From positions 1 through 53,701 of IMG/VR virus record IMGVR_UViG_3300017971_000343: a DNA stretch of 53,701 nucleotides. One strand, 5' to 3'. Made by a program: the position numbers and the translations under genes. Source of the stretch: a virus. Shown one piece after another: positions 8,335 through 33,256 of the stretch; positions within the stretch are counted from its first letter, which is position 1, and every line of letters begins with the position of its first letter. A model generated the notes under the pieces. The model searched no databases, was not told where the DNA came from, and saw nothing but the letters and a program-made list of their open reading frames with translations.

Positions 8335-8355
8335 TTCCTATAAATAATATAGGAA
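8335..8355. repeat. Perfect 8-bp inverted repeat
   Basis: TTCCTATA (8335-8342) and TATAGGAA (8348-8355) are separated by five bases. AT-rich palindromes of this size are typical protein-binding sites. Here it lies just after the 8409-8648 gene in the gene-poor region. Confidence 0.5.
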
Positions 8356-8408
8356 TTTACGGGGCTAACGTCAAGGGTTTTATTCATAGTCTTCTATAGT
8401 ATACCTTT

Positions 8409-8968: not shown

Positions 8969-8970
8969 TT

Positions 8971-9210: not shown

Positions 9211-9223
9211 TTCTTTAACTCCT

Positions 9224-10888: not shown

Positions 10889-10921
10889 TCCATAGCTCCC
10901 TTCCTTTTATATGTTTTAACT

Positions 10922-11731
10922 TCATTTAAACTCTATCCTTGTCTGCCTTTGGGCTTCTTTGATTCGTGGTCTACAAATTTCTTCAATATACTTTTCAGAA
11001 ATATCAATACCTATATAATTCCTATTTAAAAGTGTTGCCATTTTACAAGTTGTCCCAGAACCACACATTGGATCTAAAATTAAATCTCCTTCGTTGCTCC
11101 AGGAAAGAATATGGTCACGAGCAAGTTGTTCTGGGAAAATTGCAGGATGTTCAACCCCAGCATTATAATTGTTATATTTCCATGTATTAAACCTAATGCC
11201 GTATAATTCAGAACCATATTTTCTATACCCCTTAATAGAGTTATCTTTATTCCTATGCCCCATTTTCCTTTTTTTAACCGGGAGAATCCCTGATAAATTT
11301 TTTCTATCTTTGAGTAAATTAAAACATTTAATGTCTTTTTTGCTAAAAACAAACATATACTCAAAATTTTGCCAATAAGATTTATTACTACCAGTTGATC
11401 CTTGCCCATCCTTTAAACATATCATCGTGTCGTGCAAATTAAATCCTACATATTTAAAATATAATGCTTGTTTAAAAGATGTCCCTGTCTCGCTTCCATT
11501 TATTGTTTGATCTCCGACTACCCAAACAACTACACCTCCATCTTTTGTAATTCTAAATAATTCTTTTGCTAAACTTTTAAAATCAAATCTCATAATCCCT
11601 CAAATCATCGTAAGGCGAACTTGTAACTGTCAAATCAACGCAATTGTCAGGAGCATTTTTTAATACATCTAAATGATCCCCGCAAATCACAGTATTGATA
11701 TGATATGTTCGTCAACCCACTTATTACTCAT
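10922..11731 (-). pseudogene. Frameshifted N6-adenine/N4-cytosine DNA methyltransferase
   Basis: The intact part (10922-11593) has a complete AdoMet motif LILDPMCGSGTT and the closing NYIGIDISEKYIEE strand, but it begins just after the catalytic motif. The catalytic region lies upstream in another frame: VICGDHLDVLK ... LTVTSSPYDDLRDY. The original start is the ATG at 11731 (MSNKWVDEH). Removing one copy of a 5-bp tandem duplication (11697-11706) and one base near 11588 restores a single frame, reading EHINTVICGDHL and DYEFDFKSLAKEL. The catalytic SPPY has also become SSPY. I therefore read it as a decayed beta-class methylase. A sequencing error would explain neither the SSPY change nor both indels easily. 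Confidence 0.8.
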
Positions 11732-15841: not shown

Positions 15842-16357
15842 TTATTTTACTTTAGTAATATCGTCGTCAGGGTGATTGCGCATATGGGCAGTTCTCATCT
15901 CTCTTATGCAATCCCTCATAGAATAGATAACAGTTTCTATCCTTCTAAAATCGTCTCTTAATGTATCAAGAGATTTCTTTATAATACTGATTTCGGTGTC
16001 GTGATACCCGATCTTCTTCCCGATTTTTTCGTAATATTCTAAAGAGTGAGGATTCCCCGGATTGTTTTTCCTCCCACCTAAAATCTTCTTGATATCTATA
16101 AGACCACTTCTATCCAAAATTATAAATATAAGAATTATAAGTGCAAGAAAATTATTGTCGGCTTTTTTTATCAGCCAGTCGTTTAAATTTATATCGTTAG
16201 TATTTTTGTTCCCGGCGTTACTATTATTCCCACTATTACTACTCACCTGCCGAACAGTTTTTTGTTCTTCCACTGCAAGCACCTGAGTATACACCAGTAA
16301 GACTGCCAGAGCAACGACCACAGCTATACAAACCGCTTTCATCACATTCGTTTTCAT
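15842..16357 (-). CDS. Membrane protein with coiled coil, holin or spanin candidate
   Basis: The 171-residue protein starts with a signal-type hydrophobic segment (AVCIAVVVALAVLLVYTQVLA), has an Asn/Ser-rich linker, a second membrane helix (FLALIILIFIILD), and a C-terminal helix with heptads (IIKKSLDTLRDDFRRIETVIYSM). Its position next to the amidase suggests a lysis role. The two-helix plus coiled-coil layout could suit a holin or an inner-membrane spanin-like protein. It lacks a lipobox. A strong AAGGGGGTAATT site precedes the ATG. Confidence 0.55.
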   Translation of the reverse strand: MKTNVMKAVCIAVVVALAVLLVYTQVLAVEEQKTVRQVSSNSGNNSNAGNKNTNDINLNDWLIKKADNNFLALIILIFIILDRSGLIDIKKILGGRKNNPGNPHSLEYYEKIGKKIGYHDTEISIIKKSLDTLRDDFRRIETVIYSMRDCIREMRTAHMRNHPDDDITKVK

Positions 16358-16442: not shown

Positions 16443-16946
16443 TTAAACGCAGAATCCCCCCCATCTATCTTTCATTAAATATAAATTTAAAAGATACCTG
16501 TAGTCATCCATATTAATATTAGGACACGTCTTTTTTCTGTTAAATTCATAATGCCCTGCAACTTGATTATCTGTAAGGATCTTTCCTTCAATGAAATAAT
16601 CTATTTCGTTACTAGTAGTTAATTGCTTTATCAATTTAAAAGATGCCATTATTTGATTAAATGTGAACTTCTTGTTCCCTATTAAACATATCCCGTAATG
16701 AGATTCATTATAACCCTTGCAATGAGCACCTATATAATTCCTATCCCTACCTATTTGTATAAGCCCATCAAAGTCTTTATTGTATTTGCTTCGTGGGTTT
16801 AAAAATCCGTTGCAAATCACAAAATTATATCCAATGTCGTCAAACCCCCTCTTTAAATGCCAGTCTTTTATCAATTCAGAATCCCCAAATTCACTCATAC
16901 TGCAATGTAAGACTATCCCGATCAGATCCTTGCCTCTTTCTTTCAC
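16443..16946 (-). CDS. N-acetylmuramoyl-L-alanine amidase (endolysin)
   Basis: The 167-residue enzyme has the amidase-2/T7-lysozyme fold: IGIVLHCSMSEFG (first zinc His), GYNFVICNG, IGAHCKGYNESHYGICLIG, and VAGHYEFNRKKTCPN, which supplies the second zinc His and the Cys ligand. It has no signal peptide, so it needs a holin to reach peptidoglycan. The GTG start at 16946 follows GGAAGGGATAGAAT. It is the last step of the late operon together with the membrane protein downstream. Confidence 0.88.
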   Translation of the reverse strand: MKERGKDLIGIVLHCSMSEFGDSELIKDWHLKRGFDDIGYNFVICNGFLNPRSKYNKDFDGLIQIGRDRNYIGAHCKGYNESHYGICLIGNKKFTFNQIMASFKLIKQLTTSNEIDYFIEGKILTDNQVAGHYEFNRKKTCPNINMDDYRYLLNLYLMKDRWGGFCV

Positions 16947-16959
16947 ATTCTATCCCTTC

Positions 16960-17715
16960 CTATTCAACCGAAGCGGTTGGTAGTATATTAATCTTATATT
17001 CGTTTGTTGTTTTTTTCACTGTTCCCTCGGCATTTGTTTTGTCAATAAAAAGATAATACGTTCCGGCTGTCTGCTGTAAGTTGGCTTTGCTCAAATTTAT
17101 ATACGCCTGCCCTAATGTTGAACCAGATTGGGTATAATTGGTAAAGGGAAGGTTTAATGTATAATTAGCAGACACATAATCTATTTCCTTTTTGCATAAA
17201 CGGAAATTAAGAGTAAACCCTGTAAGAGATTTTTCATCGTGATCCTCATCCCAGTTTGTAATCAAAAAAGACTCGCTGTTGCCGTAATACAATTCTATGG
17301 TTTCCATTGACTTTGGAGGAGGCTGGATTATAAATATGTATTGGTTTGTAGTGTTAGGGGAAGTGCCAGCCGCATTCACTTTGTCTATAAAAAGATGATA
17401 TATGTCTGGTTTTTGGGTTAAATTTGAAATACTTAAATCAAGGGTCGCCACTCCTGTCGTAGAGGAATTAGTGAAGGCTAAATCCAAGAGGTATGTTCCT
17501 GCAACATAATTAGCTACGGAAGTACACAGCCTGAATCTTAAAGTAAAACCTGTTAGAGACTTTGCAGTCCTGTCGCTGTCGTAATTTGTTATATATATCG
17601 ATCTGCTGTCTCCATAATAAACCCTTTTAGTCTTGATCGTTTTAGCTTCAGATTGTAAAGTAAAACTTACAATAAGCATTGCGGTCAAGATAATTAACGC
17701 AATTTTATTTTTCAT
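16960..17715 (-). CDS. Secreted protein with two BppU-like beta domains
   Basis: From the ATG at 17715 (AAAGGAATATAAT site) the product begins with a signal peptide (MKNKIALIILTAMLIVSF, cleavage near SEA). Two homologous repeats of about 105 residues follow, each opening with VYYGDSRSIYITNYD or LYYGNSESFLITNWD, then KSLTGFTLRFRLC and YHLFIDKVNAAGT. This resembles the N-terminal domain of siphovirus baseplate upper proteins. Export of such a module is odd. It may be an envelope-displayed factor made late in infection. Confidence 0.68.
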   Translation of the reverse strand: MKNKIALIILTAMLIVSFTLQSEAKTIKTKRVYYGDSRSIYITNYDSDRTAKSLTGFTLRFRLCTSVANYVAGTYLLDLAFTNSSTTGVATLDLSISNLTQKPDIYHLFIDKVNAAGTSPNTTNQYIFIIQPPPKSMETIELYYGNSESFLITNWDEDHDEKSLTGFTLNFRLCKKEIDYVSANYTLNLPFTNYTQSGSTLGQAYINLSKANLQQTAGTYYLFIDKTNAEGTVKKTTNEYKINILPTASVE

Positions 17716-17728: not shown

Positions 17729-19618
17729 CTAGTAATCAAACGATTCAAGATAAATATAATCCTCGTCATGAGAATGTATTTCTATATCGTCTGGATCAAA
17801 ACTTTCCATATATATATAATCCTCGTCATAAGATTTTAACTTTTTATAACTCGAAGGTGCTGTTTGGGTGATAGTAATTGTTGGTGTTGCTGTTTTTGTA
17901 GCAGTTACGGTTAATGTCGCAGTAGCAGTTGCAGTTTTGGAAAGAGTTGCGGTTGTTGTCTGCGTTGCGGTCAGGGTTTGGGTTAGTGTGGCTGTTATAG
18001 TTTGAGTTAGCGTTGGTGTTTGCGTTAAAGTGGGTGTGGCATAAGGTGCATAGCAGATCTCAACGTAAGGTCTGAGAGTTGCATCCAGATTGTCTCCGCT
18101 TATCATTTCAATGACACAAGTATCTGCTTCGTTATATAAGAACATATTGACATCCAGATATCCGGGCAAGGCTGCCGATTCTAACAAGGCTATCCCGGTT
18201 GCATTTAGGTCAATGCATTTCCAATCATTAGATTTCCACCATGTAGCTTCTCCAATCAAATCCCCAAGATCATCAATACCTCCTGCATTATTTGTCCAGT
18301 CATTGACACCGTCATATTTATTGTAAGTATCACCTGCATTTGTCCAGTCCTGCTGTAAGGAATATAATTTCATCGTAACGCCATCACCGACTTGGTAATT
18401 ACTGACATATATCCATAATTTAGCATAAGAAATAACAATGTTATCGTATATATCTTCAAGGTCTAATCGCAAGTGAGTATATTGAATCGGAGGGTTGACC
18501 GAAGAAACATAAAGGTTTGTATCTGTTCCATAATTAGTGTCTGCATGAATATCATCGACAAACGTATCTTCCCAATGCCCCGAAGAATCACAATTTGAAT
18601 TTAGCCCCACACGGTAATATTCAGAAGGTCCGGGGCAAGTTTCAGTGGGTGTCGCTGTTACCGTCATGGTTTGTGTTGCCGTTAATGTCGGAGTTGGCGT
18701 TAGAGTTACTGTTACTGTTATAGTAGGTGTTTTTGTCAAAGTTAAAGTCGGCGTAGCGGTTTGCGTAGCTGTCTCGGTTGCTGTTATGGTATCAGTAGGT
18801 GAAATTGTCGGAGTTAGAGTATCGGTTGCAGTCAATGTAGGTGTCGGAGTTGCTGGTGTTTCGGTTGCTGTTGGAGTTAAAGTCAATGTCGGAGTTGCAA
18901 CTAAATCATATACAATCTGAAGATATGGTCTTGCAGCCTGATTTGAATATTCTGAGGACAATCCATCCACTTTATAGTTATTGTCCTCCGAACCAGGAAC
19001 ATCTACCAAGAACACCACATCACCAGAAGCAAGTTTGCTTTCAAGGTATGTTAATCCACCAGCACTAAAGGTTAGATACCCCCACCCAGCACTCCATGTT
19101 GCTGCTGCCCTCTCGGCTATTTCGTCACCAATATCGTCTCTACCACCATTCGTATTTGTCCAGTTGCTTGAACCGTCATATTTATTCCATGTGCAACCGG
19201 CTTCTGTCCAGCTATCTGCATAATTATCCAGTTTATAAGCAGCAACCTTGTAACTTTGTGGTTCGTTAGATTGGTTGAAAATATAGAATTTTGCACTTGT
19301 TATATCGGCGTTATCCGGGAGGGTAGTAATATCAACTCTAACGACAAAGGTATAGTGATAATCGGCATGGTTATAGGCTATCAGGTTTCCTGCACTACCA
19401 TAATTAGTAGTGTTGCTATATTCATACATCTGTGTGTCTTCCCAGTCTCCGGTATAAGTATCAGCGTCCCTGAGCCCGAAAGTTACTGTTGTCGAGGCTT
19501 CCGCTTTATGGATAGCAGTATCACAAACCGTCATAAAAATAAATACAAGAAGTAGTCCTAAAAACAATAGGATAGTTGTTCCTATTGCTCTCCAGAGTCC
19601 ACAATCATCGTTTTTCAT
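17729..19618 (-). CDS. Exported two-domain DNRLRE-like protein with Thr/Pro repeats
   Basis: The 629-residue protein has an N-terminal membrane anchor or signal ([18 protein letters not shown]), then two DNRLRE/CBM96-like beta domains. Each has a [11 protein letters not shown] or [11 protein letters not shown] opening, a [13 protein letters not shown] or [13 protein letters not shown] signature, and a RPYLQIVYD or RPYVEICYA end. The domains are separated by about 90 residues of TxT/TPT repeats, and a second Thr-rich run precedes an acidic tail with three SFD(Y/P) units. Thr-dense linkers are typical substrates for O-glycosylation, which is notable beside the glycosyltransferase block. It is probably displayed on the cell surface rather than in the virion. 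Confidence 0.72.
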
Positions 19619-19902: not shown

Positions 19903-20250
19903 TTATTCTACTTTTAAATTTTTAGGCGGTTTGGGACTTCCAAACATACACCAATAAGTCACGGTTTCACTCGCAAGATTCAGAACATTTACTGCGGACA
20001 CATCAAATCTATGCTCTCCGTTCGGCAAATTACTTACATCGAAATGTAATCTTGCTTTTCCATCGTCCCTTACTTCAGGTTCAGACTGAAATGTCTGGTT
20101 CTGATTTATAGTTACAATATAATATTTAATTGTCTGACTTGGAATATCCTGTAAAGCCCAATCGCAGACGAGAAAAGGCTCCGCTTCAAGTATTGCATTC
20201 CAGCAAAACAATACCACCAATAACGATAAAATTATTAAAAACAATCTCAT
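19903..20250 (-). CDS. Secreted fibronectin-III-like domain protein (115 aa)
   Basis: The N-terminal signal (LFLIILSLLVVLFCWNAILEA) leads into one beta-sandwich domain: CDWALQDIPSQTIKYYIVTIN, then LPNGEHRFDVSAVNVLNLAS, a pattern seen in Fn3-like phage proteins. It ends in a Lys/Pro-rich tail that looks like a linker to nothing, so it may be a free adhesive domain. It overlaps the CgeB-like gene by four bases. Confidence 0.65.
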   Translation of the reverse strand: MRLFLIILSLLVVLFCWNAILEAEPFLVCDWALQDIPSQTIKYYIVTINQNQTFQSEPEVRDDGKARLHFDVSNLPNGEHRFDVSAVNVLNLASETVTYWCMFGSPKPPKNLKVE

Positions 20251-21185
20251 TTCTCTCCATCCTTTCTAAATCCAATTTTTTGAAATATTGTTTCAAACCT
20301 ATGTTGATAAGTATGTTCTTCTAAAGTTTTTTGCCTTGCATTTTGAGCAAGTTCCATACAGTAGTCCGGGTGCCTGATCAAATGCTTCGCCTTTAAGACA
20401 AGATCGTCCAAGTTGTCATATACTACGATTTCCTTTCCGTCTACATAGCAATCTTCGATCATGTCGCTATTCCCAGTCAATAAGCATCCCCCTCCTGTGC
20501 AGGCTATTTCAAAATCCCTTGCCTTTGCTTGCAATTTACCGCTTTGACCGCTAACTTCGGATATGTTTAAACAGATATAAGATTGACTGAATATATCTAT
20601 CATGTCGTTAAAGCTAATCCTATCGGTGAAACCCCTACCAAAAGCACGAACATCTATCCCGGCATCTTTTAGCTTTTGTATATATTCCCCCCTGATTCCA
20701 TGAGATTGACCCACAAACGATATTTTATATATCTTAGGTAAGTATCGTGCGGTGAAATATTGTGGATTTCCCGCATAAGTTGAGGGTATAACTTTATCTT
20801 TTGCCCCATAAGCAGAATACCAATTAGCAGCATCGGGGGAAGTTGTGATTATATAATCGAGGTAAGGAATCCAGAAACGGGAAAAATCGTTAAATCTCCA
20901 GACATCATCAAAAAACCAGTTAATTACAAGGTATCCGTTTTCCCTTAATGTTCCGAGAGTGCTGTAATCTATCTCGTCCTTATGCAACAGGCAGAATACA
21001 AGATCCGGGTCAAAGTCCATGCAATTCATAATTATATGTTTCTGTAATTTGTCATGCCCAAGACCTTCTAACTGGCTTACATAATTATAATACAAAACAT
21101 CATGCCCCATATCAATAAGCGAATTGGCAAAGTGTTTCTTTTCTTCAAAATTTATCGTTCCGTGAGTCAAGTAAAAGATTTTCAT
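20247..21185 (-). CDS. CgeB-like glycosyltransferase (copy 1)
   Basis: The 312-residue GT-B enzyme has a Rossmann-like start (MKIFYLTHGTINFEEKKHFA), FFDDVWRFNDF and DYIITTSPDAANWY in the N-terminal half. The donor-binding half has ISFVGQSHGIRGEYI and KARDFEIACTGGGCLLTG, the Glu and Gly-Gly loop that defines the CgeB/glycosyltransferase-1-like end. It should move a sugar from a nucleotide donor to an unknown acceptor in the cytoplasm. It pairs with the radical SAM gene upstream, and the same pair occurs again at 22352-24413. Confidence 0.8.
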   Translation of the reverse strand: MKIFYLTHGTINFEEKKHFANSLIDMGHDVLYYNYVSQLEGLGHDKLQKHIIMNCMDFDPDLVFCLLHKDEIDYSTLGTLRENGYLVINWFFDDVWRFNDFSRFWIPYLDYIITTSPDAANWYSAYGAKDKVIPSTYAGNPQYFTARYLPKIYKISFVGQSHGIRGEYIQKLKDAGIDVRAFGRGFTDRISFNDMIDIFSQSYICLNISEVSGQSGKLQAKARDFEIACTGGGCLLTGNSDMIEDCYVDGKEIVVYDNLDDLVLKAKHLIRHPDYCMELAQNARQKTLEEHTYQHRFETIFQKIGFRKDGEK

Positions 21186-21194
21186 CTCTTCTCC

Positions 21195-22232
21195 TTATAC
21201 AAATTTCCAATACCAATCATCGTTTTTGTAAGATATAAAATTCTCATAATATTTAGACAAAGTGCATTTTCCACAATCTCGCTTCGGGTTTATACTGTCC
21301 ATAATTTCGAAATGCTTTTCACTGCCCCAGAACTCTCTTATTTCATCTATGCCGCACAACCTCAAACCCTTTTGTCCCTTTCTATCTATACACAACCACC
21401 AGCCGGAAGGCAGGCATATTCCAAGTAATGGAGCAAGTTCACATTTATCAAATTTTAAACTGACAAGATTGTTGTCGAAACAGGCAAAGAAAGGAATGAA
21501 CTCAAAATTATCGTCTGATAGTTCGTGGCATTTCTTAATCTGTTCGTTAATCAACTTCAAGTCCAATTTCTCTTCTTCGTTTTTGTAAGCCAGAAAATCT
21601 ACGGGTCTAAGATGGAAACTATCACATCTAAGATCTTTTGCAATTTTACAAGCGTCATATATCTCATGTTGATTCTCAGGATGAATTAAAAACTTGAAGG
21701 TTATTCCAACCTTACAATTTTTCTTATCCATCTCTTTATAATATACAAGATTATAAATATTTTTCAAGGTTTTTGTAAATCCGTCTACTTTTTTTAGCTT
21801 TAAAAATGTTCCTCTTGTTGACGCATCGACAGATATGCCAACCCATCGCATGTGATCGGCAATCGTTTCAACTAATTTTGTTGTCCACGAATATCCGTTT
21901 GTGATCATTGCAGATTCGAGTCCTAATTTTGTGCAATGCTTTACAAACAGATCGATTTCAGGATGAAGGCTTGGCTCTCCCCCTCCAGCGAAGCAGATTC
22001 CCAAAGTTCCCCAATTCGCCAAATCATCTAACAATTTAATCATTACATCTTTCGATATCTTCTTCCCATCCAATACACGCTTGGCATTACACCACTGGCA
22101 TTTCAATGTACAGGAATTTATAGGGTCGATATTTACTTCAACTGGGGCAATCAACTTTCTGTCGATTATCCCCTGCATGTTATCCCTGTATAGTAAGCAC
22201 TTGTTTTTATCAAACGATCTTGTCTGTTTCAT
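21195..22232 (-). CDS. Radical SAM enzyme with SPASM-like C-terminus (copy 1)
   Basis: The 345-residue protein carries the 4Fe-4S motif CTLKCQWC in the first 50 residues, then FAGGGEPSLHPEI (SAM binding), AMITNGYSW and GISVDAS strands of the TIM barrel. The C-terminal part has further Cys (CELAPLLGIC, LRLCGIDE, CGKCTLSKYY), suggesting auxiliary cluster binding. SPASM-type enzymes modify peptides or sugars by hydrogen abstraction. The partner CgeB-like gene hints at a glycan or glycopeptide substrate, which is inference. Confidence 0.82.
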   Translation of the reverse strand: MKQTRSFDKNKCLLYRDNMQGIIDRKLIAPVEVNIDPINSCTLKCQWCNAKRVLDGKKISKDVMIKLLDDLANWGTLGICFAGGGEPSLHPEIDLFVKHCTKLGLESAMITNGYSWTTKLVETIADHMRWVGISVDASTRGTFLKLKKVDGFTKTLKNIYNLVYYKEMDKKNCKVGITFKFLIHPENQHEIYDACKIAKDLRCDSFHLRPVDFLAYKNEEEKLDLKLINEQIKKCHELSDDNFEFIPFFACFDNNLVSLKFDKCELAPLLGICLPSGWWLCIDRKGQKGLRLCGIDEIREFWGSEKHFEIMDSINPKRDCGKCTLSKYYENFISYKNDDWYWKFV

Positions 22233-22349
22233 TTACAATACCACCATTACCACAAATGTTATGGCGAAACAAAAAATGCATAAAATAGAAAGCACTAATA
22301 AATTACCCCTTTTAGTTTCTGGCAATTCTGGACTCCAATCACTACACAT
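22233..22349 (-). CDS. Small single-pass membrane protein (38 aa)
   Basis: The frame fits exactly between the radical SAM and glycosyltransferase genes: TAGGAGATTGATT precedes the ATG, and TAA directly abuts the next ATG. The product has a polar start (MCSDWSPELPETKRGN) and one hydrophobic helix to the end (LLVLSILCIFCFAITFVVMV). It could anchor the pathway at the membrane. No family is known. Confidence 0.6.
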   Translation of the reverse strand: MCSDWSPELPETKRGNLLVLSILCIFCFAITFVVMVVL

Positions 22350-22351
22350 AA

Positions 22352-23287
22352 TCAATCTCCTATTCTATTAAAAATATCTTTCATCCTGTGTTCCCACGTA
22401 TGTTCTCTTGTTGCACGATTATAAGAATTTAATGCAATATCATATCTTTCATCTTCTCCTTTTGTTAAATAATAATCTATCTTCTCTGCGAAATCGTCCA
22501 TCCCATCCCAATATGCCATCTCATTATCATTGAAATAATTCTTTAATTCAGGAAGATATTCTGCGAGTAAAAATGCTTTGCACATCGGCACTTCGAAATT
22601 TTTTGCCTTTATTGGTTTTAATATCCCCTGTGGAGGATTTGCGAAATGTATGTTTATTTTTGCAGAATTTATCGCATAAAGATAATCGTTAAATGAAATC
22701 CTGCCAGAATCAAACTCATTCCCAAGTGTAACGAATTTATATTTATTGCCAATTCTTTTTTTTAATTCTTCCGTCATTATTTTTCTGGTTCCCACGTTTT
22801 GCCCGGTAAAAACTACATCAATTGTTTTGGGTAGATTTATCGGCATAAAATAATCGGGATTCGCTGCCCATTGAGAATATATTACATTATAAAATTTATC
22901 TTTTTTATACCATTGTAATGCAACTCCAGCCGTTGTTATTGCATAGTCAATATGAGGAAGCCAAAATCTTGTCCCCAAAGGTCTATCCCAATGATAACGC
23001 CAGTGATCGTCTGAAAACCAGCAGGCAACCTTTACTCCCCTTTTTCTTAAAATATCGAATGTTTCATACCTGATTTCTTCTTTTAGAATTATTGCAAATA
23101 CTGTGTCGATATTGCAATACTCCACAATTCTTAAAATATCGTCTTGCAATTTCTGATTATCAGGGCTATCAATAAAAGAATTGTAATTGTAATAAACAAC
23201 CTTATGTCCAAGATTCATTATAGAATCCTTGACTTGATGTTGCTGCTCAAAGTTTGGTTTGCCGTGTGTTAAATATAATATGTTCAT
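22352..23287 (-). CDS. CgeB-like glycosyltransferase (copy 2)
   Basis: A 311-residue paralogue of the 20247-21185 enzyme: MNILYLTHGKPNFEQQH at the start, CWFSDDHWRYHWDRP, DYAITTAGVALQWY, VVFTGQNVGTRK and KAKNFEVPMCKAFLLAEY in the donor half. Length, order of motifs and C-terminal EHTWEHRMKDIFNRIG all match copy 1, so the two arose by duplication of a cassette. The acceptor is unknown. Confidence 0.8.
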   Translation of the reverse strand: MNILYLTHGKPNFEQQHQVKDSIMNLGHKVVYYNYNSFIDSPDNQKLQDDILRIVEYCNIDTVFAIILKEEIRYETFDILRKRGVKVACWFSDDHWRYHWDRPLGTRFWLPHIDYAITTAGVALQWYKKDKFYNVIYSQWAANPDYFMPINLPKTIDVVFTGQNVGTRKIMTEELKKRIGNKYKFVTLGNEFDSGRISFNDYLYAINSAKINIHFANPPQGILKPIKAKNFEVPMCKAFLLAEYLPELKNYFNDNEMAYWDGMDDFAEKIDYYLTKGEDERYDIALNSYNRATREHTWEHRMKDIFNRIGD

Positions 23288-23300
23288 ATCTTTAAATCTC

Positions 23301-24413
23301 TTACGGAAAATTTTTGCACATCGAATCCTTTATGAAAACCTTTTCTATTATTTCGTTATATGTTCCGAACGTGCATCTTGGACACTCGTTTATGTTTATT
23401 GAATTAATCATTTTTTTATGCTTATCTGATCCCCAAAATTTTAGTATTTCTTCGTGTTTGCACATTACAAATTCCTTTTTACCTCTCATGTCAAAACATA
23501 GATGACAGTTACCGTCTGCACCAAATGTAGCAAGCAAAGGTGTTGCTCTGCATTTACTGAAATTAAGTTTCCTTTTGAAATTTTTCCCGAATTTATGCCT
23601 TATTCCGAATACCTTGAAATTTCCATCTTCAAGTTCCATCGCTTTTGAAATTTGTTCATCAAATAAAGATATGTGTTTAGTAAAATCCAATGTTTCACAT
23701 TTATTGTTTGATTCTATATTATCTACACATGCAGGTCGAAGATGAAAATGCTGACATCCAATTTCTTTGGCAAGTTTAACAGCATCGTATATTTCGGAAA
23801 CATTCTCCGGGAACAGCAGATATTTAAAGGCAATATCACACATCCTGCCTTTTAACTTGCTATTTATTTTACACATATTTTCTATGTTTTTTATAACTTT
23901 GCCGAAAATATCTTTATTTTTTATACCCTTTATTTTAATAAATGTATCGCCATTGCTTGCGTCAACGGATATTCCGCACCATCGAGAGCAATGTAATATT
24001 GCATCTATCTGTTTTTCTGTTATTACAGAGCCGTTTGTTATTACTCCTGATTCTATTGAATGATAATTTAAATCCCAGATAAATGTTGCAAGATGTGGAT
24101 TTAATGTTGGTTCGCCGCCACCCGAAACGCATGTTGATTTTACACCAAAATCCGAATATATGCACACAAGGTTATTTAATTGTTTTTCAGATAAAGTGTG
24201 TTCCTCTTCCGATCTATATTTTTGTGCATTGCAATGCGGGCAATTAAAATTGCATTTGTTTGTAGGGTCTGTATCTACTGTAACGGGCGGAAGAATTTTA
24301 CCCTTTGCAAGCGCTTCCAACTGTTCCCTCCAAACAAGCACCTTCATTGAATTAAAAGGATTTAACTGATCAGACCATTCGGTAAATTCAGTATGATTTT
24401 TTTTTGCTGACAC
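23301..24413 (-). CDS. Radical SAM enzyme with SPASM-like C-terminus (copy 2)
   Basis: The 370-residue paralogue of the 21195-22232 enzyme has CNFNCPHC, VSGGGEPTLNPHL, GVITNGSV and GISVDASNG, and a Cys-rich end (CRATPLLATFGADGNCHLC, FVMCKHEE, CPRCTFG). The shared FWGS(D/E)KH segment before the last Cys pair in both copies shows common descent. The GTG start overlaps the methyltransferase stop upstream. Substrate unknown. Confidence 0.82.
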   Translation of the reverse strand: MSAKKNHTEFTEWSDQLNPFNSMKVLVWREQLEALAKGKILPPVTVDTDPTNKCNFNCPHCNAQKYRSEEEHTLSEKQLNNLVCIYSDFGVKSTCVSGGGEPTLNPHLATFIWDLNYHSIESGVITNGSVITEKQIDAILHCSRWCGISVDASNGDTFIKIKGIKNKDIFGKVIKNIENMCKINSKLKGRMCDIAFKYLLFPENVSEIYDAVKLAKEIGCQHFHLRPACVDNIESNNKCETLDFTKHISLFDEQISKAMELEDGNFKVFGIRHKFGKNFKRKLNFSKCRATPLLATFGADGNCHLCFDMRGKKEFVMCKHEEILKFWGSDKHKKMINSININECPRCTFGTYNEIIEKVFIKDSMCKNFP

Positions 24414-25249
24414 TATATTTCCATCTCTTTCAAGTCTCCGATAGTTTTTAAAATGATTGGTTTGCCCTTAATTGCAACGAAAATCTCTTTTATCCCGATT
24501 GCTTTGCGTTCAAAACTAATGTTAAACCCAATTCTGTTCAATAATTTATAGATTGAAGGTTTGTCTAACAAAAAACTTTCTTCGTTCCCAATCGATCCTC
24601 TGTTATTTAGTTCACCATGAGTTCTACCATCTTTTGTTACTTTGCTTTCTCCAGTTCTTTCTTTAAAATAAAACCCGGAATATTTTTCACCTTTATGTTG
24701 TACCTCTATATTTTTGGACGGATCGTGGTTATAATTTGTATGAATAAGCATTAGCTTTTTACACATTTTTGACAATCCTTCCATCCAATCAATTTGTTCG
24801 GGGAAACTCAAGTGGTAAAGTATCCCGGCATTTATAATCACATCAAATTCTCCATATTTTTCTAAAGTGCAATTTCTTACATCATCACAATGAATATGCA
24901 AATTGTTTAAATTAAGAACTTTTTTCACAAATCTCTGCTTTTCACAATGTTCTTCTCTACCTTCAACGGATACAACTTCAGCCCCATGCAATGCAGGTTC
25001 AATAGAATGTAATCCTTCTAATGAACCTAAATCGAGAACCCTTAACTTGTCGAACGGCTTGTTTGTTATGTCCTGCATTGCCTGCATAAATATTCTTAAA
25101 TGCACACCGTTACTACCTGCCCCGTTTTTACTGTTCAGGTAATCTAAACTTACATTATGTCTCGTGTATATTCCGTCACCCAGATATGTATTTGCAGATT
25201 GCCATATACCTAAACTTTTCATCTCTTTTATTACTTGTTCTTTATCCAT
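24413..25249 (-). CDS. SAM-dependent methyltransferase (copy A)
   Basis: The 278-residue class I methyltransferase has motif I LRVLDLGSLEGLHSIEPA, then VVSVEGREEHCEKQ (acidic end of strand 2), CDDVRN, and FDVIINAGILYHL. The GILYHL signature is shared with the next two upstream genes, so these are three paralogues. No target-specific domain is visible. In this setting sugar or lipid hydroxyl groups are likely acceptors, by inference. Confidence 0.78.
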   Translation of the reverse strand: MDKEQVIKEMKSLGIWQSANTYLGDGIYTRHNVSLDYLNSKNGAGSNGVHLRIFMQAMQDITNKPFDKLRVLDLGSLEGLHSIEPALHGAEVVSVEGREEHCEKQRFVKKVLNLNNLHIHCDDVRNCTLEKYGEFDVIINAGILYHLSFPEQIDWMEGLSKMCKKLMLIHTNYNHDPSKNIEVQHKGEKYSGFYFKERTGESKVTKDGRTHGELNNRGSIGNEESFLLDKPSIYKLLNRIGFNISFERKAIGIKEIFVAIKGKPIILKTIGDLKEMEI

Positions 25250-25263
25250 CTATCTTCTCCTAT

Positions 25264-25947
25264 TCATTTTATTGCGATAAAAGTTTCCCTCTGAATACCA
25301 GTTGGTGCTTCAGGGAACATCAATTTATATACCGAACCAAATCCTACGGCAGATAACATTTTTGCTAATTCTTTTTCTTTGAACCAAAAACTTTCGTCAT
25401 TACTAATTGCAGAAGTTAATCTTTTTTCAATCTGAGTTGGGGACAGTCCCTTTATTGGCTCATCGTAAATCATTCCACTATAATTAATGCCCTTATAATT
25501 AAATGTAGCTGGGAGCATATCTTTATATTTGGATGGCAAAACATCACAGCAATTCGTGTCTATTATTAATAGTCTATTGCAACATTTATATACTTCTTCC
25601 AACAAGTTACATATAGAATTAAAGTCAAGGTGATATAATATGCCCGGCAATAAAATAACATCAAAATGTCCGTATTTGTCAATATTAAAATTTTTCACAT
25701 CATCATGGTAGAATATTAAATTGTCGGATTTGTTACACATTGCCTTTTCAATATTTATTTTCCTCCCCTCTATCCCAACAACAATGGCTCCAAGTAACGC
25801 AAGTTGATATGAATAAAATCCTTCAAAACATCCAAGATCTGCAATCCTCAATTTCTTGATTGATATGCCAACAATGTCTCGTATTATTTGTATAAAAATA
25901 TTTAACAATTCATTTTTTCTTATTTTTCTTATTTCCATCCTGTTCAT
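25264..25947 (-). CDS. SAM-dependent methyltransferase (copy B)
   Basis: The 227-residue paralogue is the shortest: LRIADLGCFEGFYSYQLALLG, VVGIEGRKINIEKA, YHDDVKN and FDVILLPGILYHLD. It lacks the N-terminal extension of its neighbours. The ATG overlaps the upstream stop as ATGA. The glycan acceptor is only inferred from context. Confidence 0.76.
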   Translation of the reverse strand: MNRMEIRKIRKNELLNIFIQIIRDIVGISIKKLRIADLGCFEGFYSYQLALLGAIVVGIEGRKINIEKAMCNKSDNLIFYHDDVKNFNIDKYGHFDVILLPGILYHLDFNSICNLLEEVYKCCNRLLIIDTNCCDVLPSKYKDMLPATFNYKGINYSGMIYDEPIKGLSPTQIEKRLTSAISNDESFWFKEKELAKMLSAVGFGSVYKLMFPEAPTGIQRETFIAIK

Positions 25948-26705
25948 TTAATTGCCGCCAATGTCAATCGTGGATCTTTTTTTAACTTAGGGGGATGCTT
26001 AATTTCCAAAATTGTTTTAAACCCAAACTCTATTAGCATGTCATAAACACTCTTTTCGTTAAAAAGCACTGAATTATGATCTAACCCCATCCAACATTCT
26101 TTATTTTTTATAGGCAAAGCTTCTTCCTTCCACTTATCCTCCCTTATCCTTGTTCCATAATATTTATTATTTTTGTATTCTATCTGGTAATCATTCTTGT
26201 CAGTTGTAGTAGTTGATAAATAAAGAAACTTAGAACAAGCATTTGACGCTTCTTCCAAGATTCTTACCCCATAGTCTAAATCCAAATGATATAATAACCC
26301 TGCAACCAAAACTACATCAAATTTTTCATGTTTTATTTCTGGTGGCAATCCTTGTCTCAAATCATATTGGATAAATTTAAGATTATCCATAACAAGCAGA
26401 TTCCTTAACTTGTTTGCCTTTATAATATTCTTATTGTTGGCGTCAACCCCTACTGCATATTCGGCTCCGTTCTGAATTAAAGCGAAAGAGTAATACCCCG
26501 TAAGACACCCCAGATCTATTACCCTAAGACCTTTCAATGAATTGTTAAACATTGACATCGTAACCTGAACCACCTGCTCAACCTTTGTATAAGACCCATT
26601 CTCTTTTAACCAACTACCATCTTCTAACATTATGTTTTGTCCAACCCAGTCCCCATATTTCTCGTAAACGAGAGACATTTCACATCGTATCTTGTCGGGA
26701 TTCAT
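25944..26705 (-). CDS. SAM-dependent methyltransferase (copy C)
   Basis: The third paralogue (253 residues from the ATG at 26705) has LRVIDLGCLTGYYSFAL, AVGVDANNKNIIKA, IQYDLRQ and FDVVLVAGLLYHLD. I prefer the second ATG because AAAAAGG lies at the right distance, while the first ATG (26711) is within the ribosome site. It overlaps the sulfotransferase-like gene by about 26 bases. Three methyltransferases in a row point to a product with several methylated positions. Confidence 0.75.
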   Translation of the reverse strand: MNPDKIRCEMSLVYEKYGDWVGQNIMLEDGSWLKENGSYTKVEQVVQVTMSMFNNSLKGLRVIDLGCLTGYYSFALIQNGAEYAVGVDANNKNIIKANKLRNLLVMDNLKFIQYDLRQGLPPEIKHEKFDVVLVAGLLYHLDLDYGVRILEEASNACSKFLYLSTTTTDKNDYQIEYKNNKYYGTRIREDKWKEEALPIKNKECWMGLDHNSVLFNEKSVYDMLIEFGFKTILEIKHPPKLKKDPRLTLAAIK

Positions 26706-27297
26706 TTTCATCCTTTTTCTTTTCGTTATTTATATTTTCAATATTAGTAGTTATTCTCTTTATGTCAAATATCGTTTTAAATCCTTTTTCAAAAATATTT
26801 TTTTCTAAGTTTGGGAAAGGTTTTATTAGACAATTAAAAAGATATTCACTATTTTTAACAAAACTTGGGAAATTAATTGCAACAACAGGTATGCTCCTGT
26901 GTTCCTTTAAATAGTCAGCTATTTGATAATATCGTTGCATAGTTACCATAAGCTGACGATCAGGGTCTCCCTTTGTTTCTATGTCTAATCCGCCCCTCCA
27001 GTAACCTTCATCCCATCTTTTTATCCTGCTTTTTGCAACTTCTTCAAAATCTCTACGAAGCCATATGTAATAATCAATATCCCATTGATCCAACCATTTA
27101 ATGTCTTTTGCTGTATGCTCATGATCTTTGATTATATATGCATTCAAGTTTCCTTCGAGAAAAAAAGACCTGAATAATTCCTCGTTTTTGTAAGAATTTT
27201 TCCCGTAACCCGTCTCTAATCCTAAATATGACAACAAACACATCAATATTGTCGAACCTGTTCTTCCTGTCCCACCAACTATTATCTTATGTTTCAT
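26680..27297 (-). CDS. Sulfotransferase-like P-loop protein
   Basis: The 205-residue protein opens with KIIVGGTGRTGSTILMCLL, a P-loop like the PAPS-binding 5' loop of sulfotransferases, and has a later YYIWLRRDFEEVAKSRIKRW segment that resembles the 3'-phosphate-binding Arg/Ser region. It could transfer sulfate to a sugar made by the neighbours. A small-molecule kinase of similar fold is the alternative. The C-terminal tail is charged and low in complexity. Confidence 0.6.
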   Translation of the reverse strand: MKHKIIVGGTGRTGSTILMCLLSYLGLETGYGKNSYKNEELFRSFFLEGNLNAYIIKDHEHTAKDIKWLDQWDIDYYIWLRRDFEEVAKSRIKRWDEGYWRGGLDIETKGDPDRQLMVTMQRYYQIADYLKEHRSIPVVAINFPSFVKNSEYLFNCLIKPFPNLEKNIFEKGFKTIFDIKRITTNIENINNEKKKDENESRQDTM

Positions 27298-27982
27298 AAA
27301 TCACCTTATGTCCTGTTAAATGAAATTTTCTATCTGGGTACATATCCCTTATCATTTTTTTTATTTCTTTAGTGCATATATCATAATTAGTAGCCGAAAC
27401 CCCATTTTCGTTGTGATACAATAATCCCCCCACAACATCGACTTTTGAAAAATTAGTAATTTTAGACATTCTCAGCCAGTATTCCCAATCTTGGGCAACT
27501 ACAAAACTTTCATTATAAATACCTATATCTTTCCCCAACTTTTTTCTATATATTACAAATTGCCCAATATAATTATGTCCCTCTAATTTTTCTTTTGAAT
27601 ACTCATCTACATGCACCGTATGCATACCATTTCTGGTGTAATCAAAATTAGAATAAACTACTCCTATATCGGGATTACAATCAAGAAACTCAACCATTTT
27701 ATTGGCACTTTCAGGATACCAGTAATCATCCTGACCTATCCAAGAAATATATTCACCTCTGGATAAAGAAATGCCTTTGTTGAGCGCAGTTGCATGACCA
27801 ACATTTTTAGACAATTCTATATATTCTATAGGTAAATCACAAATTAGCGAATACTCATCCTCTGGCGAAGCATCGTTTACTACAATAGTTTCGGAATTGT
27901 TAGCTGACAAACATGATTCAACAGCCTTTCTCAATTTGCCATGACTATTGTATGCCGGTATTATAAAACTAATTTTTTTCAA
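27287..27982 (-). CDS. Family 2 glycosyltransferase
   Basis: The 231-residue GT-A enzyme begins KKISFIIPAYNSHGKLRKAV, has VVNDASPEDE (nucleotide-sugar Asp), WIGQDDYWYPES (metal-binding QDD), and DWEYWLRMSK (catalytic ED/DxE region). The TTG start at 27982 follows AAGGAAACAAT. It is cytoplasmic with no membrane segment. Its sugar and acceptor are unknown. Confidence 0.82.
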   Translation of the reverse strand: MKKISFIIPAYNSHGKLRKAVESCLSANNSETIVVNDASPEDEYSLICDLPIEYIELSKNVGHATALNKGISLSRGEYISWIGQDDYWYPESANKMVEFLDCNPDIGVVYSNFDYTRNGMHTVHVDEYSKEKLEGHNYIGQFVIYRKKLGKDIGIYNESFVVAQDWEYWLRMSKITNFSKVDVVGGLLYHNENGVSATNYDICTKEIKKMIRDMYPDRKFHLTGHKVIYET

Positions 27983-28725
27983 ATTGTTTCCTTTCTTAAA
28001 TTAGAAGGGTTAAACTCTATGCCTGCATAATTGCAATACATCTTATATCTTGCAAGCATCATAAAATATTTTCGTTTACTAAGCAAACCATCATATTTCT
28101 TGCTATGTCTCCACTTATATAATATTTGGGGGATATTGCTAATTTTACATTTGGTCATAAACCTAAAAAATAAATCGTAGTCCTGACATCTTTCAAATAT
28201 CTCATCATACATACCCGCTTCTTTTAACAACGATGTCCTGAACATTATAGAACCATGACAGAATTTATTTCTATTAAAAAAATCTTTTCGGATATCTATA
28301 TCTTTAGTTGGCGATTTCACATCCATTTTAAATTTACCGTTTTCATTTATTATCCTATACCATGTCCCAATTAAACCAAAGCCATCGTTATCTTCTAAAA
28401 AATCAATTTGCCTTACAAATCTATCGGGTAGAGAAATATCGTCTGCATCCTGTCTGGCTATATATTTAATGTTGGGATTATCGTTCAAAACCTGTCTTAT
28501 CAAAAAATTCAAAGATTTAGGAAGTCCATAATTCCCTTCCCTTGTAAATATTTTTATTTTTTCGTTACTTCTATATTCGTTGCAAACTTCATAACTATTA
28601 TCCGTAGCACCATCAATTAAAATGTAAAATAAATAATTATCGTAAATTTGGTTTAATATGGATTGTATGGCATCGTTGACATATTCACCTGCATTATATA
28701 CCGACATTATTACAGCAAGATTCAT
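27979..28725 (-). CDS. Family 2 glycosyltransferase
   Basis: The 248-residue enzyme has LAVIMSVYNAGEYVNDAI, LIDGATDNSYEV, ARQDADDISLPDRF (DxDD metal site) and FERCQDYDLFFRFM. It is a typical GT2 of capsule or LPS style. Its end overlaps the next gene by four bases, and AAGGAATAAAAA precedes the ATG. Confidence 0.83.
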   Translation of the reverse strand: MNLAVIMSVYNAGEYVNDAIQSILNQIYDNYLFYILIDGATDNSYEVCNEYRSNEKIKIFTREGNYGLPKSLNFLIRQVLNDNPNIKYIARQDADDISLPDRFVRQIDFLEDNDGFGLIGTWYRIINENGKFKMDVKSPTKDIDIRKDFFNRNKFCHGSIMFRTSLLKEAGMYDEIFERCQDYDLFFRFMTKCKISNIPQILYKWRHSKKYDGLLSKRKYFMMLARYKMYCNYAGIEFNPSNLRKETI

Positions 28726-31700
28726 TTTTTATTCCTTACAAACAAATTGGGATGCGAGTCTTTAAAATATTTGCGAATTTTGTCGTCATGCCCTTTAGTA
28801 TATATAATATTATATTCATCTTTAAATTCATAATCGTTATTTTTAGCAAGTTCGTTATATATTTTTGATCCCGGCAACCCGATATATACATTCCTTGATA
28901 CCTGCCCCTTGGGGATATATTTATCTATAAAATTTTCGGTTTCAATACGATCTTGCTCTGTTTCATACGGAGTACCGAAAAGAAAAGAGGCATGCATGTT
29001 CATACCTATTCCCTTGCAATATTTTGCAATCTTTATGTTATCCTCCATTTTAAATCCCGGTTTTAATAAAGGCAATAACCTTTCAGAACCAGTTTCAAAC
29101 CCAATAAACAAACCTTTGCATCCAGCCCCTTGCATTTTATCAAGCAATTCAGGTGATAGATCTCTTACAGATGTTTCGCAATACCAATCTATGTCAATAT
29201 TATTTTGCTTCAAAAGATTACAAAAATTATAAATTCTTTCATTATTGAAACAAAAATTATTTTCCCTGAAGTAAATAGAACCAACACCTTTTTCTGCTTT
29301 TAAATATTCTATGTCTTTAATTATTCTTTCGGCACTTTGAAATCTATACTTATTGCCAGATATAGGACCAGAAGAACAAAAAGAACAATTATATGGACAA
29401 CCACGAGAAGTATTCATGTTGAAAAAAGGCAATTTGGATTTGACATGCGACTTATATTTTCTGTCACCAATCAAGTCATATGCAGGCATTGGCAATCCAT
29501 CTAGTTCTTTTATATATTTTGTCTTTATAACATGATCTTTTATTTTACCACTTATAAGATCTAAAATAACATTTTCAGCTTCACCTATAATAATATGATC
29601 TATTTCATCTGGATAATCTTCGGTTACAGACCAATGCGGACCACCAGATATTATTTTCACATTATGTTTTTGGCTTTTTAGTTTGCGAACCTGATTCATA
29701 ACATCTTTAATGCATATTGTGCAGGCATATATACCTACTATGTCAATATCATTACTTTCTAAATATTCAGAATCATAACTATCGGCAGGACCATAGTAGG
29801 GGTCTTTAAAAAAAATATTATGCCCCTCTTCCCTTAAAATAGAAGCTATGTACCCTAAGCCGATAGGAAATAATTTTTCCGATATACTAAAATAAATATC
29901 GTTTTGAATTGGTGCAGATGCAGTAGTTAATAAAATATTCTTGCAATTTTTCTTTGAATATTTTTTGATAATTTTTTCCCCTATCATTTTTCTAGTGCCA
30001 TCTAATTCAGTAGAATACGTCATGGATTTTTGGGAAATATTTACATCTACCACGATCTTGTCAATAAAATTCCACGCATCAACTCCATATTCGTCTAAAA
30101 CTCTAAAATTCATTTCCATGTCACCCAGACATGGCAATGTGTCATCAAAATACCCGATGTCGTCAAAAATTTCTTTCCTAAACATTCTATTACAAGTAGT
30201 CCAATTCCTACCTGTTTCCAAAGGCGATTCCCCTCTTTTTACCATATTGGCAAGAGTATAATTCTCCTCTGGTATTATGTCGCCACATCTATAATTAAAA
30301 TTTCTATTGGCTTTCCCATATACAGCCTTTATACCATTATTTGTAAATCCAGAAATTAAAAGTTCTAATGCATTTGGTCTAAAAAGATCATCATCATCTA
30401 ATTCTGTTACAAAATCTCCAGTTGCCAATTTTAATCCTGTATTTAAGGAAGCAAAAAGACCTAAATTATTGGAATGCCTAACGTAAATATAATTTTCAAG
30501 TTCAGAATCTTTTATTATATTGCGGACATCATCGCCTCCATCATTTACAACAATAACCTCATAGTTTTCATATGTTTGTTTCTTTATTGATTCCAATGCA
30601 CTTAATAATGGCTTCTCCCTATTGTACGTTGGGACTATAATAGATATTTTTTGCAAAGACGGCACAACTGTTTTGAAAACTCTTAAAACATCCTTAGATG
30701 TTATTGACTTTACACATATATCATTGCCACGTGGGCATTTGAGCTTTCTATTCATAGGACGATCTATAGACCAAATTCTACAGCCTAGACAATTTAAATT
30801 TTCATTGCGAATTGCTTTTAATCTTTCTGGATATAGCAAAACAAGTTCCGGGGGAACGCTACCTAGTATTACAGCACCCGGTTTATAATATGCATTGGCA
30901 ATATGCATTGGGGCACTGTCTATGCCGAAAAAACCAGAACAATTCTTTATAATTCCTGCCGATTCCTCCCATGATAAACCACAGTAACTATCAGCTATGT
31001 CTTGGGTCAAATTCCTACTCTTACCAATTTCTATAATTCTATACCCCATTTTCTTTATTTCCAACAAAGATTCTTTAGCAACATCTATTGGCATATTTCT
31101 TCCATCCCAAGGATTGGGACCCAAATGTACAACTATATATTTAAAATTAAAATATTTTTCTACCCATTCTGCTATTTTGTCGGTAAGAAAAAATTCTGGT
31201 CTTTTGTCTTTTAAATGTATTCCTGATTGTGCCATGTAAGAATCTACAATATGACCAATTGATTCCGATTTATGATACATGCATTCGTATGTCATGTCTA
31301 AGTCTATAACGCAATCGTATTTACTCTCATTTATTTTACTAGAAGTCCCTAAAATATTATCTATCTTTGGGTTATTAACTAATAATCCAGGAGCGTTTGT
31401 CACAATAGTTATTTCTGCGTAAACATTTTCTCTCTTTATCTGTTTTATCAATGGAGTTATTAAAAATACATCGCCAGAAGAAGATGTTCTTTTTATTAAA
31501 TATGATTTTTTAAAACTTTTATTTTTTATATAATTAGAGAATTTATCTACCAATATCTTTTCATTTTTTAAATTATATCCCCTTACATCCTCCCTAACGA
31601 GCCGGGAAGTTGGACACGATTTGTCATGTATCATATTAAAAGGAGTATGCTTTATCTTAAACCCTCGCATCCTTGCACATAAACACAAATCGGAATCCTC

Positions 31701-32546
31701 TGCATACGCAAATTCTAATTCAGGAGAAAATAAACCAAATTCTTCGGCATATTCTTTTTCTATTGCAAGACAACTGCCCTCAATGTAATCATAATTATCG
31801 GAATCAACACTATACCCCTTGCCATTATCTAAAAGACGACATTTAGTTGGTCCGCAAATTTTAACATCATGATCGGAAAACCCGGATAATATTTTATCCA
31901 ACCAGTAATCAGACACCGTAATGTCATTATTTAACATAAGAAAATAACGACCATTGGCTTTTTTAAATGCATATTTTTGCCCGCCGATAAATCCAATGTT
32001 TTTCTTGTGCTTTATTATTATTGTTTTTATGTCGTTCTCTTCCTTAAAAGATTGAATATATTCGTATGTATCATCTTGGCTATTATTATCAGTTAATATT
32101 AATTCATACCTTATATCGCCTTTAGAGTTTAAAATACTATTCAAACACTTTTTCGTTTGATCAATCCTATTGCAACACAATATTGATATGGAAAATATAA
32201 TATCTCTTTCGTCTATCTTGGATATTTTCTGATATTCATCCTGCTCATCTAAATCACCAACATTATCTTGCAATATTTCAATTTCATCTGAAGATATCGG
32301 TGTGTCATCGTAATGCATATTTATTATTTCAGGTCTTTCAATATTCGCAATTTTCGAAACCCCAAACTGATCCAATGCAAATGATGGAACGTCTTTTTCT
32401 TCAACACGTTCCCAGCCTTGAGTCAAAAGTGCTTTTACCGAAGCCCGTTTTTTTACAATACAATACCCTTCAAAACATTTAATTACTCCCTCATAATGAG
32501 TAGTGGTTGTATTCCTAAAATAACCTTTTTTATTCATCCAGTACAT
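28722..32546 (-). CDS. Five-part fusion: structural-type domain, GT2, GT9-like, GT2, B12-binding radical SAM
   Basis: The 1274-residue protein joins several enzymes. Residues 1-60 form a small domain with IKCFEGYCIVKK, which resembles IVKCYKGYAVVKN in the protein at 48763-49209. Residues ~115-325 are a GT2 (SISILCCNRIDQ, LILTDNNSQDD, LMLNNDI, EDSDLCLCARM). Residues ~345-630 are GT9-like (SGDVFLITPLIKQI, VVHLGPNPWDG, FFGIDSAPMHIANA). Residues ~640-870 are a second GT2 (SIIVPTYNREKP, VVNDGGDD, ELDDDDLF). The end is a B12-binding fold (IISGGPHWSVTEDYPDE) plus radical SAM with CPYNCSFC. All active-site motifs look intact. The ATG at 32546 has TAGGAG seven bases upstream. One chain could carry out successive sugar additions and a radical step. 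Confidence 0.85.
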   Translation of the reverse strand: MYWMNKKGYFRNTTTTHYEGVIKCFEGYCIVKKRASVKALLTQGWERVEEKDVPSFALDQFGVSKIANIERPEIINMHYDDTPISSDEIEILQDNVGDLDEQDEYQKISKIDERDIIFSISILCCNRIDQTKKCLNSILNSKGDIRYELILTDNNSQDDTYEYIQSFKEENDIKTIIIKHKKNIGFIGGQKYAFKKANGRYFLMLNNDITVSDYWLDKILSGFSDHDVKICGPTKCRLLDNGKGYSVDSDNYDYIEGSCLAIEKEYAEEFGLFSPELEFAYAEDSDLCLCARMRGFKIKHTPFNMIHDKSCPTSRLVREDVRGYNLKNEKILVDKFSNYIKNKSFKKSYLIKRTSSSGDVFLITPLIKQIKRENVYAEITIVTNAPGLLVNNPKIDNILGTSSKINESKYDCVIDLDMTYECMYHKSESIGHIVDSYMAQSGIHLKDKRPEFFLTDKIAEWVEKYFNFKYIVVHLGPNPWDGRNMPIDVAKESLLEIKKMGYRIIEIGKSRNLTQDIADSYCGLSWEESAGIIKNCSGFFGIDSAPMHIANAYYKPGAVILGSVPPELVLLYPERLKAIRNENLNCLGCRIWSIDRPMNRKLKCPRGNDICVKSITSKDVLRVFKTVVPSLQKISIIVPTYNREKPLLSALESIKKQTYENYEVIVVNDGGDDVRNIIKDSELENYIYVRHSNNLGLFASLNTGLKLATGDFVTELDDDDLFRPNALELLISGFTNNGIKAVYGKANRNFNYRCGDIIPEENYTLANMVKRGESPLETGRNWTTCNRMFRKEIFDDIGYFDDTLPCLGDMEMNFRVLDEYGVDAWNFIDKIVVDVNISQKSMTYSTELDGTRKMIGEKIIKKYSKKNCKNILLTTASAPIQNDIYFSISEKLFPIGLGYIASILREEGHNIFFKDPYYGPADSYDSEYLESNDIDIVGIYACTICIKDVMNQVRKLKSQKHNVKIISGGPHWSVTEDYPDEIDHIIIGEAENVILDLISGKIKDHVIKTKYIKELDGLPMPAYDLIGDRKYKSHVKSKLPFFNMNTSRGCPYNCSFCSSGPISGNKYRFQSAERIIKDIEYLKAEKGVGSIYFRENNFCFNNERIYNFCNLLKQNNIDIDWYCETSVRDLSPELLDKMQGAGCKGLFIGFETGSERLLPLLKPGFKMEDNIKIAKYCKGIGMNMHASFLFGTPYETEQDRIETENFIDKYIPKGQVSRNVYIGLPGSKIYNELAKNNDYEFKDEYNIIYTKGHDDKIRKYFKDSHPNLFVRNKK

Positions 32547-33256
32547 TTCCACTCTCCTATATAATATTTCCCTTTTTTATACCCGTTCATTGCAACCCGT
32601 ATTGCCCTTACCCTCAAATCAGAACTCCCCCTGAATCTTTCTATTATTTTATTCTTTAATTCGTTTGGTCTTGCATGATGTTTAAAACATTTCAATGGTC
32701 TGCTCCAGTATTGTGTTTTCAAGCTGACTCTCGCCCAGTCAATATCGTCACATCCCCATTTCACCCCGGTTTCTGGTTCGTAACACCTGAACCCACCAAA
32801 CTCTTTCACAACAGGGTGACGGGCAAATATAACCCTGTACGCCCTGTGATGACAATGGTCTATTGTTATCTTCTCGTTTTCCCCAACTGTCATGCTGTCC
32901 ATTTTAGGCATCTTCTCAAACTCTTTTAACACGTCTTCATCCCATCCCGGCAACGCTTCAATGTTCCCGTCTGCCTTCACAAATATATCTTCAGGATTAG
33001 AATCCGGCATCTCTTTTAACCAGAAAATATTTCTTGCTGTAGCAGGCGATAAATGTTCGCTTGATACTTTAAATTCGTGTATCATACCTTTTTCTTTTAA
33101 TGCAGAAAGTTTAACTTCCATGTCAGGATCAGGGCTATGGTTGTCTACATAAAACACCTGAACATTATCCGGGTTCTTTGCGTTTTGCTTCCAACTAACA
33201 GCACATTGTTCCCATACATCAGGTCTGTTCCATTCAACAATAAATATTTTAAACAT
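32534..33256 (-). CDS. Family 2-like glycosyltransferase, GT-A fold
   Basis: The 240-residue protein begins FKIFIVEWNRPDVWEQC, has VFYVDNHSPDPDMEV (nucleotide-binding), FVKADGNIEALPGW (in place of DxD), and KWGCDDIDWARVS near the end. It is therefore a divergent GT-A enzyme. It directly follows the tail hub gene in the transcript and overlaps the giant fusion, linking the tail operon to the glycan block. Confidence 0.72.
   Translation of the reverse strand: MFKIFIVEWNRPDVWEQCAVSWKQNAKNPDNVQVFYVDNHSPDPDMEVKLSALKEKGMIHEFKVSSEHLSPATARNIFWLKEMPDSNPEDIFVKADGNIEALPGWDEDVLKEFEKMPKMDSMTVGENEKITIDHCHHRAYRVIFARHPVVKEFGGFRCYEPETGVKWGCDDIDWARVSLKTQYWSRPLKCFKHHARPNELKNKIIERFRGSSDLRVRAIRVAMNGYKKGKYYIGEWKCTG

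Follow-up and report, generated by a model that had tools for sequence, protein, structure and literature searches.

The window, meaning the whole stretch of 53,701 bases that was analysed, is an IMG/VR virus record belonging to a tailed phage. Along its minus strand, genes for a portal-like protein and a head-tail adaptor are followed by the tape measure, an ORF of 1725 aa, a glycosyltransferase island, the gene P0001, an Amidase_2 endolysin, and DNA metabolism. Rfam and tRNA scans of the window are empty, and a promoter scan stays at chance level. At positions 3-422 there is an open-ended ORF with pentapeptide-type A(D/N)LRxAD repeats on a 15-base DNA unit. A second contig (L004), found via the 1725-aa ORF, comes from the same phage: it is 100% identical outside a 108-base gap and ends before the P0001 gene. 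The 108 bases missing from it (34608-34715) lie within the 1725-aa ORF, where their absence leaves the frame intact, and are no copy of their neighbours. P0001 lies on the minus strand at the coordinates given in the earlier note, and it and its surroundings are organized as follows:

17729..19618, minus strand: ORF P0001 (629 aa), predicted exported tandem DNRLRE/CBM96-type protein with Thr-rich linkers
19526..19585, minus strand: N-terminal hydrophobic segment, a signal anchor or long signal peptide (residues 12-31)
19496..19504, minus strand: possible signal peptidase I site AEA↓S (residues 39-41), read from sequence
18899..19495, minus strand: DNRLRE/CBM96-type domain 1 (residues 42-240), hallmark WTEAGCTWN
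18635..18895, minus strand: Thr-rich linker 1 (residues 242-328)
18038..18628, minus strand: DNRLRE/CBM96-type domain 2 (residues 331-527), WTNAGDTYN
17858..18037, minus strand: Thr-rich linker 2 (residues 528-587)
17732..17854, minus strand: acidic-aromatic C-terminal tail with a duplicated DEDYIYxESFD (residues 589-629)
16960..17715, minus strand: P0002, predicted exported neighbour with a signal peptide and two 51% identical repeats
16443..16946, minus strand: Amidase_2 endolysin, single domain
15842..16357, minus strand: protein with a signal or TM segment at its N-terminus and one further TM; its position is holin-like
19903..20250, minus strand: small, predicted exported protein that looks Ig/FN3-like by eye; its ORF overlaps the stop of the glycosyltransferase next to it
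20247..33256, minus strand: glycosyltransferase/radical SAM/methyltransferase island, upstream of P0001 in the same direction, soluble proteins only

The start of P0001 at ATG 19618 is credible, as GAGAGG lies about 8 nt upstream as a ribosome-binding site; the alternative start, Met29, has no Shine-Dalgarno sequence. The proposed anatomy of two beta domains and long Thr linkers is confirmed by a double match to the NCBIfam family DNRLRE (NF033679; E 1.2e-15, 58 bits over 2 stretches, for a curated cut-off of 34 bits) and by runs of alternating Thr. The hallmark core W-T-E-x-G-x-T-W-N is kept in domain 1 (WTEAGCTWN) and degenerate in domain 2 (WTNAGDTYN). The two domains are 35% identical (E 9e-25) and are sisters in a tree of 48 domains (support 98/86), which makes the pair an internal duplication.

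With 23 sequences as input, AF2 models domain 1 at a pLDDT of 83.5. The model's top PDB match in Foldseek is 8wab, a chondroitin-sulfate-binding CBM (E 4.6e-9), and it also matches the alginate-binding CBM96 7vbo (E 2.2e-7, TM 0.65/0.71), which is recovered by sequence with the family profile as well (E 3.3e-9). Viral fold matches are mostly to phage tail and CBM96-named proteins. Thus the DNRLRE domain of P0001 models as a CBM96-type beta-sandwich. A Pfam search of P0001 reports no CBM96 model, its sole hit being TGFb_propeptide, below threshold; this weak hit is explained by the fact that prodomains of the TGF-beta family are structural neighbours of CBM96 (PMC9971899, Table 3). CBM96 is also about 30% identical to DNRLRE domains (PMC9971899). 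In the reference protein, the alginate-binding TM6-N4 of Dp0100 (PDB 7VBO), which has the domain profile and beta-sandwich fold in common with P0001, the groove residues Lys25, Lys27, and Arg36 provide the basic groups for alginate recognition (PMC9971899). P0001 differs in being phage-borne, in having no catalytic domain, and in the loss of these basic residues, since the aligned positions are neutral or aromatic (by eye). Both of its domains are also net acidic, so that its ligand is probably not a polyuronate, and neutral sugars are the more likely candidates. The tandem use of the domain in P0001 is found among other DNRLRE/CBM96 proteins, which in bacteria are exported.

P0001 is 17.2% Thr, the highest content among the 52 ORFs. 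Thr makes up 42 of 92 residues in linker 1 and 28 of 64 in linker 2, with alternating-Thr runs of 27 and 14, and the linkers hold a Thr/Ser-rich potential acceptor region. Thr codon choice there equals that of the other ORFs, and the 72 Thr-initiated codon pairs include 48 different ones. This argues for a pattern maintained in the protein and against a DNA repeat; Tandem Repeats Finder detects only fragments of 38 and 16 bases in the linkers. Two database matches were set aside: that of PHROG 15511 apparently runs through the Thr linkers only, and the phmmer hit 8zvk is a low-complexity match to a linker. In the C-terminal tail, the two copies of DEDYIYxESFD have 75% DNA identity over 53 nt. 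The earlier note mentions neither this duplication nor the exported ORFs next to the gene.

At the other end of the protein, residues ~12-31 are strongly hydrophobic, with a 19-residue Kyte-Doolittle maximum of 2.66. The possible site AEA↓S ends up about 8-10 residues past the hydrophobic core; its cleavage is uncertain, and the rather large distance favours an uncleaved anchor. The signal or membrane anchor that had been proposed thus holds as a prediction, backed by the hydrophobic segment and its own ribosome-binding site, and P0001 would be exported across the host inner membrane. It is not isolated in this. Strongly hydrophobic N-termini occur in 4 of the 52 minus-strand ORFs (19903-20250, P0001, P0002, and 15842-16357), and all four belong to a single stretch of six genes, the endolysin gene among them, for a random expectation of 0.0017. 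This clustering indicates that P0001 belongs with an exported set near lysis and not with the island specifically. P0002 has no family match. Its true start is ATG 17715, a start at 17769 having been rejected; a likeness to phage domains of the BppU N-terminal type is seen by eye only, and its single-sequence AF2 model is too poor for use (pLDDT 52). The endolysin amidase has 1,417 phage matches, led by phages of Gram-negative genera in a collection biased that way, which weakly suggests a diderm host. If the host is indeed diderm, an inner-membrane anchor would put P0001 in the periplasm and not on the surface.

P0001, P0002, and the portal have no match in 50,697 phage records, and P0002, the adjacent glycosyltransferase, and the amidase each find no or one remote viral locus. 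The phage proteins that contain a DNRLRE domain are typically signal-less, and are tail, baseplate, or small single-domain proteins. The tail and baseplate examples (the CBM96 protein of Brevibacillus phage SecTim467; L002, L005, L009, and L114) have the domain of P0001, come from the same kind of virus, and are likewise encoded in or beside tail genes; nearly all those seen are, however, without N-terminal signal and Thr linkers. Phage structural proteins with alternating T-x linkers between beta domains resemble P0001 in that respect, but among the matches listed, a hydrophobic N-terminus is lacking in 63 of the 72 whose N-terminus is intact. In three phage contigs, small exported Thr-linker proteins stand beside terminase and portal genes (L041:5562-6197, L082:5676-6967, and L045:1575-2426); those of L041 and L082 are Cys-rich, with C-terminal domains alike by eye. 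Another exported ORF of L041 (6955-8121) was considered as DNRLRE-like and dropped, hmmsearch and hhalign being negative.

Among 27 viral stretches with the DNRLRE hallmark, one has a clear signal (L162) and one has Thr linkers (L158). The contig of the latter, G049 (IMGVR_UViG_3300010391_000037), is a tailed phage of 61% GC: inspection shows genes like those for capsid, tail tube, and tape measure, and PHROGs gives minor tail and tail hits. Its 962-aa ORF combines a signal, beta domains, a DNRLRE domain (NF033679, E 2.2e-21), and T/P linkers, and is adjoined by an exported T-linker ORF of 1238 aa, the pair being flanked by tail genes on one side and by minor tail/holin-like genes on the other. 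In L175 coordinates the pair is 4751-7636 and 7642-11355, and the member without DNRLRE has, by eye, a glycoside-hydrolase-type N-terminal domain. The G049 proteins have the same ingredients as P0001, but they are longer, have more domains, and are not close homologues. Judged from sequence, G049 is a clear independent parallel of the P0001 arrangement in an unrelated phage. The domain tree counts two changes, but P0001 and G049 may still share one origin.

Given the CBM-type fold matches, the best reading of P0001 is that of a phage lectin that is exported. In full, we tentatively propose, at somewhat less than an even chance, that it is a stalked, two-headed lectin acting in the host envelope, where it masks or cross-links glycan. 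The strongest competitor, still unlikely, is a tail or fibre adhesin of the virion, whose hydrophobic N-terminus docks into the particle or is incidental. The nearest tree neighbour of the P0001 domains is indeed a signal-less phage protein (L161, support 87/91), and tail and baseplate genes without signal are the normal home of the domain in phages. The gene comes after the tail block and the island, which can be counted towards an adhesin, although a typical virion DNRLRE tail protein is not so placed. The very hydrophobic 20-residue N-terminus with its own ribosome-binding site argues against it, as do the three neighbours with hydrophobic N-termini and the exported parallel in G049. Moreover, the virion proteins of tailed phages are assembled in the cytoplasm.

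That P0001 is a secreted lectin of bacterial origin, benefiting the infected population through adhesion or matrix and unrelated to phage entry or exit, is decidedly improbable. Bacteria often have DNRLRE domains in their exported proteins and enzymes, and the exported domain of G049 groups with a cellular one (92/71); the P0001 domains, however, group with a phage domain, and no integrase was noticed among the ORFs of the window, so that there is no indication of prolonged carriage as a prophage. It is a little harder still to see P0001 as an aid to lysis and release, a glycan-binding tether spanning the envelope and working with endolysin and holin. Its clustering with other predicted exported proteins, next to the amidase and a holin-like ORF, would suit this role, and the exported genes of G049 are likewise near a holin-like gene. 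But proximity is the sole argument: P0001 has nothing catalytic and no spanin features, with no lipobox or coiled coil seen.

The earlier note had gone further, making P0001 a substrate of the glycosyltransferases upstream. If Thr-linker proteins needed phage glycosyltransferases, they should share contigs with them. None of the nine contigs with signal-bearing Thr-linker proteins carries a glycosyltransferase of the GT2 (PF00535) or CgeB type (PF13524); these nine are the viral contigs among the matches listed, and several are short fragments. PF00535 (GT2) is present in 13 of 48 Thr-linker phage contigs among the matches listed. The signal-bearing L060, whose contig G027 carries PF00535, was excluded from the nine because its N-terminus reads as that of a multi-pass membrane protein. 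In the island itself, no protein has a transmembrane stretch, so that no membrane glycosyltransferase is seen, and no oligosaccharyltransferase or flippase is present among the Pfam hits. The linkers contain only two Bacteroidota-type D(S/T)(A/I/L/M/T/V) motifs. The island also encodes a 1276-aa fusion (28722-32552) of GT2, GT9-like, GT2, B12-binding, and radical SAM domains. Within the head-tail gene block there is, in addition, an 810-aa protein with three GT2 stretches (44198-46630). The precedent for phage-encoded self-glycosylation concerns virion proteins of mycobacteriophages (PMC12363180, citing Freeman 2023). Together with the glycosyltransferase in the head-tail module, this makes virion or envelope targets at least as likely as P0001. 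Thus, although the linkers are very Thr-rich and of low complexity, the glycosyltransferases lie directly upstream on the same strand, and mycobacteriophages do modify their own virion proteins, the idea that these enzymes O-glycosylate the linkers for display of a glycoprotein on the host surface is, on the contig counts, the missing membrane machinery, the sparse motifs, and the competing virion targets, the least probable of the readings. The linkers may instead be glycosylated by host machinery. Of the earlier interpretation, export by a signal or anchor and the domain and linker anatomy are therefore supported, and the link to the glycosyltransferases is not.

Returning to the envelope lectin, a course of events can be proposed. 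P0001 would probably be made late in infection, a timing read from gene position only, as all the genes considered are on one strand. The host Sec system would export it; its N-terminal segment would then most likely keep it fixed in the inner membrane, unless it is cleaved at AEA↓S. Outside the cytoplasm, domain 1 would sit at the membrane, while an extended stalk rich in Thr would hold domain 2 about 90 residues farther away, and beyond domain 2 a second stalk would lead to the acidic-aromatic tail. The two heads would bind glycans of the host envelope. Receptor or matrix glycan would then be masked or cross-linked, so that progeny would be neither re-adsorbed nor trapped, or second phages would be blocked. 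This masking role is the weakest step of the proposal.

Domains of the DNRLRE/CBM96 type occur widely, both in bacterial surface proteins and in phage tails. Among openly accessible papers, a literature search found no described phage-exported CBM96/Thr-linker lectin. It is conceivable, though rather doubtful, that Sec-exported Thr-stalked lectins, with DNRLRE/CBM96 or other beta domains, recur in the tail-to-lysis region of different lineages of tailed phages, and that they make up an as yet unrecognised class of phage lectins of the envelope, which would act late in infection by remodelling or masking glycan of the host. The case of P0001 cautions against inferring substrate relations from glycosyltransferase neighbourhoods. 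If the proposal is true, a phage lectin exported by the host and carried on mucin-like stalks beside lysis genes would mean that infecting phages install lectins in the envelope of their host, and it would provide a concrete, testable candidate for the means by which progeny are kept from sticking to debris and receptors.
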